A stretch of DNA of 31,410 nt from Pseudomonadota bacterium (GTDB taxonomy: Bacteria > Pseudomonadota > Gammaproteobacteria > Acidiferrobacterales > UBA6901). Where the stretch lies: contig JAJYEK010000033.1 in the NCBI GenBank assembly GCA_021785795.1, positions 1-31,410 on the forward strand, written 5' to 3'. The notes under the pieces were generated by a model. That model had not been told where the DNA came from. It did no database searches and saw only the letters and a program-made list of their open reading frames with translations. Shown here one piece after another: positions 6,145-10,106 of this stretch (positions within the stretch are counted from its first letter, which is position 1; each line of letters opens with the position of its first letter). The translations under genes were made by a program, and so were the position numbers.

Positions 6145-7539
6145 CTATTTCCTGGCGGGAACGCCAAGGCGTTTGTGGGCGCGCGCTATGGCTTGGCGTA
6201 CCTGCTCCGGGGCGGTGGCACCAAAATGCTTCCTGGCAGCTACCGACCCGGTCACCGTCAATATGTCGAATACATCCGTACTGATGATCGCACTAAATCG
6301 CTGCAGCTCCGACAGGGTCATTTCCGCCAGATCCTTGCCACTGTCGACTCCATAGCGGACCGCCCGTCCCACCACTTCGTGCGCGTCGCGGAATGCAACC
6401 CCCTTGCGCACCAGGTAATCCGCCAGGTCGGTAGCCGTGGAAAATCCATGCTGGGCAGCATGCAGCATGTTCTGACGTTTGACCTTGATGTTTGGCACCA
6501 GATCCCCGTATGCCCTGAGACAGCCGAGAACGGTATCCAGGGCATCGAACAGCGGCTCCTTGTCTTCCTGGTTGTCTTTATTATACGCAAGCGGCTGGCC
6601 CTTTATCATGGTGAGCAGAGCTACTAGGTCACCGACGACACGGCCGCTCTTGCCTCGAACCAGCTCCGGAACATCGGGATTTTTCTTCTGGGGCATGATT
6701 GAAGAGCCTGTACAGAACGCATCCGGGAGCTCCACGAAATTGAACTGACTCGATGACCACAGGACCAACTCCTCCGAGAAACGCGACAAATGGATCATCA
6801 ACAACGCCGCGCCGGCAGCAAACTCCACGGTGAAATCGCGATCAGAGACGGCGTCCAGGGAATTCTCCGTCACAGCTTCAAATCCGAGAGCGCGCGCCGT
6901 GAATGCACGATCGATCGGATAGCTCGTGCCGGCCAGGGCTGCAGACCCGAGCGGCATGACATTGATGCGCCTGCGGCAATCAGAAAAACGCCCGCGATCG
7001 CGCTGGAGCATCTCGAACCACGCCAGCACGTGATGGCCGAAGGTGACCGGCTGGGCCACCTGCATGTGGGTGAATCCGGGCATGATTGTATCGGCCTCGC
7101 GCTCAGCGAACGAAACCAGCGACTGCTGCAACCGCTGGATTGCCGCATCGATCGCGTCGACACCGTCGCGGAGATACAGACGCAGATCAGTGGCAACCTG
7201 ATCGTTGCGCGAGCGCCCGGTGTGCAGCTTCTTGCCGGCATCGCCGATACGCGCGATCAGGCTCGATTCAATATTCATGTGCACATCCTCAAGCGCCACG
7301 CTCCAGGAGAACGTGCCGGCCTCTATTTCAGCCTCGATATCGAGCAGGCCCCCGACAATCGCGTCTCGTTCCGCCTCGGTAAGCACACCCACATGGGCCA
7401 GCATTTTCGCATGCGCCACGGAACCAGCAATGTCCTGCCGGTAAAGCCGCTTGTCGAACGAAACGGAGGCAGTGAAGGCCTCCACGAACGCGTCTGTCGG
7501 TTCGGTGAACCGGCCTTCCCAAGGCTTGTCTATGCTCAT
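6145..7539 (-). CDS. argH: argininosuccinate lyase
   Basis: ArgH cleaves argininosuccinate to arginine and fumarate, the last step of arginine synthesis. The 464-residue protein begins [16 protein letters not shown] and has all fumarase/aspartase-superfamily blocks: [37 protein letters not shown] (catalytic His region) and the signature [12 protein letters not shown] near residue 280 with the catalytic serine loop. Length is standard. No clear ribosome site precedes the ATG. It is divergent from algZ, separated by 685 bp, and may lead a minus-strand unit through the cyclase, MazG-like and rlmJ genes. The argH-algZR-hemCD order matches Pseudomonas. Confidence 0.97.
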
Positions 7540-7690
7540 GTCTGCGTCATCGTCATTTCTGGTTGGTCCCGGCAGAAAGCTGCGCCGCGCATGTCTTCAT
7601 GTGCGCGCCGGCGGATGCCTTCCCGCTCGTCCGTGCACCCGATCCGGCTGTCGGTAGAGCATTGTTGAAGACAGGCGTTCTAGGCTAGTG

Positions 7691-7825
7691 TTAATCTAAC
7701 TGAAGTTAGTTGAACGAGTCGCGGATTAGTCGGCGTTACCCTGGTTCGGACTCTCCTTTGTGCACCCCCACCCCGAATGCCGAACCAGGTCTTCCTGCCC
7801 CCGTCCAAGACGGGGGCTTTTTTTT
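7691..7825 (+). ncRNA. candidate small regulatory RNA with C-rich loop
   Basis: No plus-strand gene precedes the strong terminator at 7797-7825, so a short transcript must end there. Upstream are a tight hairpin (CTAACT GA AGTTAG, 7696-7709) and a 10-bp perfect stem CCTGGTTCGG (7740-7749) / CCGAACCAGG (7780-7789). The stem encloses a 30-nt loop rich in C, including CTCTCCTTTG and CACCCCCACCCC. CUCCUUU is complementary to ribosome-binding sites, a hallmark of trans-acting small RNAs with C-rich loops. TTGAAG at about 7665 and a TGTTAAT box near 7689 could be its promoter, but the fit is weak. The 5' end is a guess. Confidence 0.55.
7797..7825 (+). terminator. strong intrinsic terminator of the candidate small RNA
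   Basis: GCCCCCGTC CAA GACGGGGGC forms a perfect 9-bp stem with a 3-nt loop, followed at once by eight T residues (7818-7825). The T tract is on the plus strand only, so it ends plus-strand transcription. The nearest plus-strand gene (algZ) starts 400 bp downstream, and the upstream gene argH runs the other way. Confidence 0.92.
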
Positions 7826-8224
7826 CCACGCCGGCATGGACGGTCGGGTCGGCCCCGGGGCACCCGGGGACACAGGACGAATATACTTATTTTTCATGCA
7901 TAAAAACAGAACAAGTTGAGGTACTATTCTTGCAGTACAGGCAAACGTCACGGTCAGATTTGGTCCGCGATGACCGCATGCCGTGACAGGGGAAGCGATC
8001 GGCCGACCGGAAGCATGGGGTCCTTTGGACAATCGGGTCCGATCCGGAAATCCGGCTGGCAGGAAAATGTCGCCGACTGCAGCGTGGCCGTTCACCCCAA
8101 TTCTGACAGGGAGACGCGGTGGCACGGATTGCGGAATACCGCAGCGCCCGGTATTGCGTCCGATATTCATGAACCGCCGTTTGCATTCTGAAACAGTACT
8201 ACCCCACCCCCCGGTAGCCCGGAC
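7826..8224. other. long leader region upstream of algZ
   Basis: No gene was found in these 399 bp. An AT-rich patch at about 7880-7930, containing TATACT at 7882-7887 and TTGAGG at 7916-7921, is the probable promoter zone for algZ, but no -35/-10 pair with good spacing could be fixed. The rest is GC-rich with no strong hairpin followed by T residues. Confidence 0.4.
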
Positions 8225-9277
8225 ATGAACAAACCCAAGTCTCCTGGCCAGGACTTCCTGCCCGATTTCGCGTCCTTGAGCAATGCACTGCGGATCATCT
8301 TCCTGGCATTGATTATCGCAGTGATCATTACGATCGGACGCAATGCCACGTTCGACGAACGCGCCTGGCAGGACCTCAACCTGCTTACAGCCTTCGCGCT
8401 GATGATCTCGTTCGTGAGCGTCATTGTACTCAAGCTGGCGCATCCGTTCATACGCCGGCTCTCACTCGTCAACGGCTCGATCGTGGTGTTTCTGCTGCTT
8501 CTCTGCGCCATAGGGCTTGGAACGGAGCTCGTCATTTTCGGGTTGTATGATCTCGGCCTGATCAGCACACGCTGGCCCTCCTGGCACGTGGCGCTGCTCG
8601 CCCGCAGCCTGCTCATCGGCGCCATCATCAGCGCACTAGGCCTGCGCTACCTGATCGTGTCACACCGAGCGGAGGCGGATTCCAGGTCGGAACAGGAGGC
8701 GCGTCTGCAGGCTCTACAATCGCGCATACGCCCGCACTTCCTGTTCAATAGCATGAACAGCATCGCCAGCCTCACACGCAGCGATCCGGCGCGCGCCGAA
8801 ACTGCGCTGCAGGATCTCGCAGACCTGTTTCGGGTCCTGCTGGCGGACGCCCGCAACCTGGTCCCGATCTCGGCGGAACGGGAAATATCGCGGCAATACC
8901 TGGAAATCGAGAAGCTGCGGCTCGGAGACCGCCTGAAGGTGTCGTGGAACGTGAGCAATGTGCCGCGCAGCGCGCTCATTCCGGCGCTTACGCTGCAGCC
9001 TCTTCTTGAAAATGCGATCTATCACGGCATCGAGCCGCGGTTCAACGGAGGCACACTGAAGATCGAACTCTGGGCCGAAGGCGACTACCTCAGCGTGCTG
9101 ATCAGCAATCCGCTGCCGGAGACGCAGAACCACCGGTCATCCAAAGGCAACAAGATTGCCCAGGAAAACATACGCCAGCGCCTCAATACCCACTTCGGCA
9201 GCGCCGCCACCATGCAGACCTTCGAGGAAGGCAAGCAATACCATGTCAAACTGAAAATGCCGATTGTGAGGGGATAG
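8225..9277 (+). CDS. algZ: AlgZ/FimS-type sensor histidine kinase (LytS class)
   Basis: A 350-residue membrane sensor kinase. Four or more hydrophobic helices fill residues 20-140, with no periplasmic sensor domain. The His_kinase (PF06580) domain has RIRPHFLFNSMNSIASL, with the phospho-accepting His at residue 171, and the N-box QPLLENAIYHGIE. The G-box is degenerate (GNKIAQENIRQRL instead of a GxGxGLxN pattern), as I recall for the Pseudomonas AlgZ/FimS proteins, which raises the question of whether it is a kinase, a phosphatase or both. It pairs with the response regulator 94 bp downstream. In pseudomonads this pair controls alginate and type IV pili; the targets here are unknown. Confidence 0.9.
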   Translation: MNKPKSPGQDFLPDFASLSNALRIIFLALIIAVIITIGRNATFDERAWQDLNLLTAFALMISFVSVIVLKLAHPFIRRLSLVNGSIVVFLLLLCAIGLGTELVIFGLYDLGLISTRWPSWHVALLARSLLIGAIISALGLRYLIVSHRAEADSRSEQEARLQALQSRIRPHFLFNSMNSIASLTRSDPARAETALQDLADLFRVLLADARNLVPISAEREISRQYLEIEKLRLGDRLKVSWNVSNVPRSALIPALTLQPLLENAIYHGIEPRFNGGTLKIELWAEGDYLSVLISNPLPETQNHRSSKGNKIAQENIRQRLNTHFGSAATMQTFEEGKQYHVKLKMPIVRG

Positions 9278-9371: not shown

Positions 9372-10106
9372 ATGAAGGTGCTGATTGTTGATGACGAGAA
9401 GCTGGCGCGCGACCGCCTGCGTGAACTGCTGACCGAGATCGGAGGCCATGTCATCGTCGGCCAAGCCATGAACGGCAACGAGGCCGTGGAGCGGGCCGCC
9501 GAGCTGAAACCTGACGTATTGCTGATGGACATCCGCATGCCCGGCATGGATGGACTCGAGGCAGCAATGCATCTGATGGGACTGGAAACCCCCCCGAGCG
9601 TGATTTTCACGACTGCCTATGACCAGCATGCGCTGCACGCCTTCGAGGTGAACGCCGTCGACTACCTGCTCAAGCCGATCCGCAAGGAACGGCTCTCCCT
9701 GGCGCTCGAGAAGGCGCACAAGCTCACGCTGAAGCAGCTGCAACAGATCAACCAGGCCCAGGAACAGCCGAGTGCGCGCACGCACATCAGCGTGCACCTG
9801 CGCGGCAATATCCGCTTGGTACCTGTCCAGGACATCCTGTATTTCATGGCGGACAGCAAGTATGTCACAGTGCGCACCCCGTCGGAGGAGCACCTGATCG
9901 AGGATTCCCTGGTCAACCTGGAAAAGGAATTCGGCGAGAAGGCGTTTCTGCGGATCCACCGCAACGCGCTGGTCGCCACCAGCTATATCAAGGGAATCGA
10001 GAAAAGCCCGGCTGGCACCTGGCAGGTAAGCCTAAAGGGTCTTGACCGGAAGCTGGATGTCAGCCGGCGCCATGCCGCATCAGTCCGGCGGTGGGCCCGG
10101 CACTAG
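9372..10106 (+). CDS. algR: AlgR-type LytTR response regulator
   Basis: A 244-residue response regulator. The receiver domain (1-120) has the acidic pair D7-D8 (IVDDE), the phospho-acceptor D53 (LLMDIRMPG), the conserved T (FTTAYDQHALHAFE) and K (YLLKPI). The C-terminal LytTR DNA-binding domain runs from about 140: THISVHLRGNIRLVPVQDILYFMADSKYVTVRT, then LRIHRNALVATSYIKGI. The ATG follows GGAGGTAATCT, an ideal ribosome site, so it can be made independently of algZ. Its stop lies within a GC-rich hairpin (10095-10112), tail-to-tail with the thioredoxin-fold gene. Confidence 0.93.
   Translation: MKVLIVDDEKLARDRLRELLTEIGGHVIVGQAMNGNEAVERAAELKPDVLLMDIRMPGMDGLEAAMHLMGLETPPSVIFTTAYDQHALHAFEVNAVDYLLKPIRKERLSLALEKAHKLTLKQLQQINQAQEQPSARTHISVHLRGNIRLVPVQDILYFMADSKYVTVRTPSEEHLIEDSLVNLEKEFGEKAFLRIHRNALVATSYIKGIEKSPAGTWQVSLKGLDRKLDVSRRHAASVRRWARH

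Follow-up and report, generated by a model that had tools for sequence, protein, structure and literature searches.

The two-component system AlgZR, which serves surface life, has been studied in depth. In P. aeruginosa the binding sites of the response regulator AlgR resemble CCGTTCGTC, including the site at the fimU promoter, and fimU-pilVWXY1 is a classical AlgR operon in Pseudomonas (PMC4064291). The direct repeats to which LytTR regulators bind are spaced by about 12 bp, and this spacing is not obligatory for the AlgR sites of P. aeruginosa (PMC4064291). According to the same review, the signal for AlgZ is undetermined. AlgR also directly controls prrF2, a small RNA gene of P. aeruginosa (PMC5790918). 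Small RNAs with C-rich loops that have been characterised target G-rich sites in mRNAs (PMC3771888, PMC6234868, PMC5869019). One of them, sX13, is reported to be active without Hfq, and its deletion raises the type IV pilus and algR mRNAs (PMC3771888).

The DNA analysed here (the window) is a stretch of 31,410 nt from a bacterium of the order Acidiferrobacterales, to which the cultured species Sulfuricaulis limicola and Sulfurifustis variabilis also belong (PMC5024460). The window has a conserved RNA gene with a structure and terminator, a tandem box at a fixed distance to a -35-like element upstream of it, and relatives carry such a box upstream of pilV. The RNA lies between argH (6145..7539, minus strand), which is divergent from it, and an algZ-like sensor kinase gene (8225..9277, plus strand). 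This is the position given in the preliminary description, and it was verified from the genes of the window. An algR-like gene (9372..10106, plus strand) lies approximately 1.5 kb from the RNA. It encodes a response regulator with a receiver and a LytTR domain, which is the proposed activator of the RNA. Comparison of this protein with solved structures gave mainly receiver-domain matches, and a named AlgR was absent among the 60 matches listed. Two AlgZ-like kinase genes occur in tandem in five genomes (G092, G321, G120, G237 and G336), the second being 36-40% identical to the AlgZ of the window.

The core of the RNA is a hairpin on the plus strand. Its arms, CCTGGTTCGG at 7740..7749 and CCGAACCAGG at 7780..7789, have perfect 10-bp complementarity and enclose a 30-nt C-rich loop, ACTCTCCTTTGTGCACCCCCACCCCGAATG, at 7750..7779, which is the proposed pairing region and contains the loop core TGCACCCCCACCCC at 7761-7774. 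An intrinsic terminator follows at 7797..7825 (plus strand). The sequence GCCCCCGTC-CAA-GACGGGGGC at 7797-7817 forms its 9-bp stem and 3-nt loop and is followed by T8 at 7818-7825; it is the one terminator-like site on the plus strand between 7500 and 8300. The preliminary description had this anatomy of stem, loop, terminator and T8 right to the base. It had also claimed that no plus-strand gene precedes the terminator; the nearest preceding ORF on that strand (6790-7668) is antisense to argH and was judged to be spurious. A 5' leader at 7698..7739 (plus strand) is predicted from the position of the -10 element, which would place the start at about 7698. Folding of the 140 nt from 7691 to 7830 gives -48.9 kcal/mol (z -3.24), a value that none of 200 shuffles equalled. 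Stems of 10 bp that enclose 20-40 nt occur in 2 places in the window and in 0-3 places per shuffled window (n=10). Because a lone 10-bp stem is near the shuffled-window rate, the case for the RNA rests on comparison.

A contig search with AlgZ resulted in 43 loci, all titled MAG. In 36 of these (L001-L036) the AlgZ is 50-97% identical, and several of the 36 are labelled Acidiferrobacterales or Acidiferrobacteraceae. The core TGCACCCCCACCCC, with at most one mismatch, is present in 31 of the 43 loci and in the window; each has it a single time, on the same strand as algZ. Two loci (L011 and L034) start at a contig end, so that only the 3' part of the RNA is visible, and L028 likewise starts at a contig end, 143 nt ahead of algZ. 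There is no RNA ahead of algZ in L006 and L014; in both genomes the RNA adjoins argH elsewhere. One contig with the argH-RNA-algZ arrangement of the gammaproteobacterial order is titled Nitrospira sp. (L012), a label or bin that is probably wrong.

In an alignment of 32 loci (30 distinct rows), 93.8% of the cells are paired and 12 of the 16 pairs of stem and terminator are changed on both sides. The covariation score was reached by none of 500 shuffles, and partners slid out of register pair in at most 63%. Compensatory changes in the 7740-7749/7780-7789 stem, whose absence the preliminary description had named as a refutation, are abundant: 7 of the 10 pairs show two-sided changes in the alignment and all 10 do so with divergent members, whose addition brings the covarying pairs to 15 of 16. 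The loop behaves differently. The earlier reading of a small RNA with a C-rich loop is supported, while its proposed anti-Shine-Dalgarno part is retained less strictly: CTCTCCTT is variable within the order (27-32 of 32 loci per column) and different in other orders, and the most conserved element is the core TGCACCCCCACCCC, which is invariant in 32 of 32. The loop in other orders, for example ACCCTCAT..CACCCCC, retains mainly the C-run. Variable stems around a constant loop are what would be expected if the RNA offers this loop to many partners.

A small protein gene or a chance pair of hairpin and terminator could in principle give a similar picture, as a 10-bp stem arises in shuffled windows and a frame reads through the region. 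The strong covariation and the presence of the RNA in nearly all genomes of the order (see below) make this explanation highly improbable. The protein-gene reading was rejected since the loop length shifts by 1 nt between relatives, which breaks any frame. The proof of the RNA is comparative, as read from aligned sequences, and consists of covariation and conserved position. The locus thus almost certainly represents a new conserved small RNA family.

A covariance model of the RNA (R1) matches once per genome in 53 of the 57 genomes that represent the order and has no match in the other four (G400, G406, G416 and G419). All 10 genomes reached through AlgZ loci match strongly. In a sample of the class (n=369) it matches 8 genomes. 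Four are of the same order, and in the other four (G067, G204, G309 and G336) the RNA also lies between argH and algZ. Matches were found in 7 of the 8 genomes in the order of G204, one of which (G427) has a weak match without argH or algZ, and in 2 of 4 in the order of G336 (E up to 0.1). Divergent homologues occupy the argH-algZ gap in two other orders. The RNA is twinned in six genomes of the order of G204, with starts approximately 290-440 bp apart; in the three examined (G067, G204 and G309) each twin has its own box.

The gene argH is found within 1.5 kb of the RNA in 40 of 41 loci and algZ in 38 of 41; contig ends truncate two loci (L067 and L078). This synteny could be taken to suggest a cis element, namely a leader or attenuator of algZ in which the terminator gates read-through into algZR, and in the window the RNA does lie upstream of algZ on the same strand. 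However, the distance from the terminator to algZ in the window is 399 nt, one locus (L052) has kept the RNA beside argH with algZ on another contig, and the twin copies each have a box and a terminator. A cis role is therefore very unlikely, and a free-standing RNA is the preferred reading. In the genome of L014 and L050 the RNA is likewise by argH and away from algZ, but N runs flank both places, so a scaffold join is likely. The L052 locus also contains a short repeat, atgggtagtctcctgg, twice between the promoter and the hairpin. In one genome without the RNA (L144), a long inverted repeat, spotted by eye, occupies part of the argH-algZ gap.

A second model (R2) was applied to samples of the class and the phylum. 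In the class sample (n=369), 8 genomes match at E<1e-9, all with argH and algZ adjoining the RNA, and the other 41 matched genomes are at E 2.9e-4 or worse. In a sample of the phylum (n=299), G001 matches at E 8.7e-20 and the next best at 1.1e-5. Neither argH nor algZ was found in the 1.5-kb flanks (three of them short) of any of the 41 weak loci inspected (class search, 22; phylum search, 19). With no argH or algZ nearby, the weak matches were set aside as chance or analogues. Two loci of the phylum sample (L119 and L120) have a hairpin with the C-rich loop CCCTCCTCCCCTCCC and a terminator, again with argH and algZ absent from the 1.5-kb flanks; this is possibly a separate spoon-type RNA. Two others (L106 and L115) have a hairpin with a CCCC loop and a terminator. 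These presumably resemble the Burkholderia double-hairpin type.

The region upstream of the RNA contains a promoter-like sequence and a tandem box at 7623-7691, of which the preliminary description made no mention. In the window the box reads CCGCTCGTC-N12-CCGGCTGTC, two 9-bp direct repeats with 12 bp between them. The first half-site, CCGCTCGTC, is at 7623..7631 and the second, CCGGCTGTC, begins 12 bp past it at 7644..7652, giving a 21-bp period; both are on the plus strand and the box is of the LytTR/AlgR type. The proposed -35 (TTGTTG, 7662..7667, plus strand) is 9 nt past the box and is a weak match that was placed by its conserved spacing. The proposed -10 (TAGTGT, 7686..7691, plus strand) follows after an 18-nt spacer. 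Together they match 6 of 12 consensus bases, and a consensus scan of 7500-8300 found no sigma-70-like promoter. Genes that depend on an activator should have weak promoters; therefore, this promoter would fit an activator-dependent gene.

Across loci the promoter has the general form TTG-N16-18-TAnnnT plus the tandem box. In a survey of 40 distinct loci, in which TTG hexamers with a 16-19-nt spacer were allowed, the distance from the box to the -35 is 9 nt in 36. The -35 is at 19-20 nt in L005, L012 and L016, displaced by 10-11 nt or about one helical turn, and at 26 nt in L008. The -35/-10 spacer is 17 nt in 32 loci, 18 in 7 and 16 in 1. The -10 is followed by the hairpin after about 47 nt in the window compared with about 7-13 nt in many relatives, in which the hairpin would therefore be nearly the 5' end. 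The group of the window has a leader of about 40 nt. The predicted transcript is thus about 90 nt in most relatives and about 130 nt in the window's group.

The box accompanies the RNA closely. The strict box pattern is present in 38 of 49 RNA copies (a count in which one contig appears twice, as L073 and L033), and all 49 have it with at most two mismatches, 11 needing one or two. Among 30 algZ loci, the strict pattern, which was composed after boxes had been seen, is found in 7 of the 8 that have the RNA and in none of the 22 that lack it; the eighth RNA-bearing locus (L140) has a box with one mismatch, and in L151, where argH is out of view, 599 nt were scanned.

Both 9-mers upstream of the RNA are similar to CCGTTCGTC, the AlgR site of P. 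aeruginosa, and the window has the promoter layout of the AlgR/LytTR type, with two such direct repeats about 12 bp apart. A matrix built from 29 RNA promoters, with no fitting to pilus genes, was used to scan two genomes, G092 over 1.2 Mb and G001 over 0.8 Mb. The promoter of the RNA reaches 33.8 bits in G092 and 31.8 bits in G001, which are top scores by construction because the G092 box is among the 29 and that of G001 is close to several of them. The second-best sites score 16.0 bits in G092, where the site spans the beginning of a long plus-strand ORF and precedes a divergent 197-aa ORF by about 165 nt, and 19.1 bits in G001, where it overlaps the 3' end of an ORF. Ranks three and four in the 1.2 Mb of G092 are tandem boxes upstream of genes like fimU, pilV, pilW, pilX and pilY1, names that were read from the sequences and not from a family search.

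These boxes prompted a test of the regions upstream of pilV in other genomes. Of the 57 genomes of the order, 34 gave a pilV match and 23 gave none. In 25 of the 30 loci obtained, the region upstream of pilV has a site of at least 8 bits (one of the 25, in L277, on the opposite strand; L289 contributed 161 nt), and without G092 the count is 24 of 29. Of 4000 random segments 2.7% have such a site, and of the 30 downstream stretches none does. With the threshold raised to 10 bits, 22 of 30 upstream regions have a site compared with 0.9% of random segments. An equivalent of the RNA box is thus found at the fimU-pilVWXY1 operon in 25 of 30 pilV loci, and the pilV upstream boxes are usable as an AlgR site model for this lineage. 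The upstream regions of L268-L296 and of G092 (contig C1, near 930698 and 930937) contain tandem boxes of the form CCTTTTATC-N12-CCGTTCGTC and similar, sometimes as two pairs.

The RNA is more widespread than the pilus operon, with matches in 53 of 57 genomes compared with 34 for pilV. The closest relative by AlgZ, G001, has no pilV match. Since many RNA-bearing genomes, including G001, lack such a match, the pilus link is not general. This leaves some room for a regulator other than AlgR, for example another LytTR protein, and the AlgR sites of P. aeruginosa are not obligatorily 12 bp apart (PMC4064291). However, the RNA adjoins algZR, and 25 of the 30 pilV loci have such sites in the upstream region, where AlgR acts in P. 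aeruginosa; another regulator is therefore distinctly unlikely. AlgR control of the RNA seems quite probable from the sequences, although confidence is slightly lowered because the RNA also occurs in genomes with no pilV match and because its own top score is by construction. The box lies between the divergent argH and RNA, and could also act on argH.

The preliminary description had suggested that the loop suits pairing with ribosome sites and that targets be predicted from the loop sequence. Target prediction covered parts of two genomes, with 1031 and 689 genes respectively; genes and start codons were called crudely, so that a real target can be missed. Duplex energies of the loop at gene starts are no better than those of shuffled loops (mean -14.75 compared with -16.07 in G092; eight shuffled loops, first 400 genes), a null result with which general pairing to G-runs is compatible, as the shuffles preserve C content. 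For 309 orthologue pairs the Spearman coefficient is 0.07 compared with 0.05-0.15 for five shuffled loops, with no excess correlation. The genes argH, algZ, algR, hemC and the fimU operon of G092 are poor predicted targets. Pairing with ribosome sites is thus no better predicted than for shuffled loops, and we infer it from the C-rich loop. Of the 57 genomes of the order, 55 have a gene for Hfq.

The same results raise the possibility that the RNA is real but titrates a protein with a liking for C-rich loops instead of pairing with mRNAs. The loop core is unchanged in 32 of 32 loci while the stems change, complementarity to mRNAs is not above that of shuffled loops, and one order has twin copies, all of which would suit titration. 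The loop nevertheless differs in other orders, where mainly the C-run is kept, and the characterised RNAs with C-rich loops work on G-rich mRNA sites (PMC3771888, PMC6234868, PMC5869019). Titration is therefore considered unlikely. That the RNA acts in trans by pairing is likely, but by analogy only. The explanation judged probable is that the RNA is free-standing, activated by AlgR and trans-acting, with a loop that pairs with G-rich mRNA sites. AlgR, probably in its phosphorylated form, would bind the box at 7623-7652, whose two direct repeats lie just ahead of a weak sigma-70-like promoter. The bound AlgR would drive a transcript from about 7698 to 7825, in which the covarying stem would keep the large C-rich loop open in a spoon shape. 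The loop may then pair with G-rich mRNA stretches at or near ribosome sites and alter their translation or stability; the targets are speculative, as is a possible involvement of Hfq. Since the promoter of the RNA has the type of control site found at a pilus gene cluster, a well-studied switch of surface behaviour probably acts in part through this RNA.

A wider role can be suggested tentatively. The RNA may be a dedicated RNA arm of AlgZR in this part of the Gammaproteobacteria, old in the argH-algZR locus and duplicated in one order. One type of tandem AlgR site would drive both the minor-pilin operon, where present, and the C-loop RNA, in a feed-forward arrangement in which the RNA tunes G-rich surface or metabolic mRNAs post-transcriptionally; this is possible but doubtful at present. 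To our knowledge, little is known of regulation in sulfur-oxidising and acidophilic bacteria. If true, the proposal provides a testable RNA branch of the AlgR regulon in these bacteria, and an RNA beside AlgZR that is a compact reporter of AlgR activity. It would also point to AlgR sites with the canonical LytTR-like 12-bp spacing, which is not obligatory in P. aeruginosa (PMC4064291).

The statement of the preliminary description that the RNA is not of a known family agrees with searches of Rfam, in which no family scored at or above its gathering score and permissive searches gave near-matches only. The best near-match is anti-hemB (RF02837), with 23.5 bits against a gathering score of 49.5. 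Atu_C10/PmaR (RF02497) reaches 19.1 bits against 60 and the Betaproteobacteria toxic or double-hairpin RNA (RF02278) 17.3 against 50. Literature searches found no paper on an RNA in an argH-algZ gap.

Several described RNAs share single features with the one reported here. The small RNA prrF2 has AlgR control in common with it but is iron-responsive and controlled by Fur; this comparison is by description only. Its gene is presumably located outside an argH-algZ gap. PmaR of Agrobacterium, formerly C10, similarly has one long stem and a C-rich loop that contacts the targets, in a spoon shape (PMC6234868). Unlike the RNA here, it is reported only from Agrobacterium and a close Rhizobium, and it is flanked by two genes of unknown function. 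The Burkholderia double-hairpin RNAs (RF02278, ncS27) are very short and have two stem-loops with CU-rich unpaired stretches that are predicted over ribosome sites (PMC5688073). The RNA sX13 of the Xanthomonadaceae is likewise gammaproteobacterial, and its C-rich loops act on mRNAs with 4G motifs (PMC3771888). It is described as constitutively expressed, with three stem-loops with 4C/5C loops, and as always beside polA, downstream of it (PMC3771888), whereas the RNA here has one C-rich loop and a terminator and lies in the argH-algZ gap, and so falls outside the sX13 family. In GsrN of Caulobacter the C-rich loop is the most conserved part of its family, and the gene typically adjoins its own regulators (PMC5869019). 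GsrN differs from the RNA here in being alphaproteobacterial and in having a promoter for a stress sigma factor (sigma-T/EcfG), and it was compared by description only. By analogy with these systems, the RNA of the argH-algZ gap appears to belong to the known kind of C-rich-loop RNAs, and what is new is a small RNA of this kind with an unusually clear predicted regulator.
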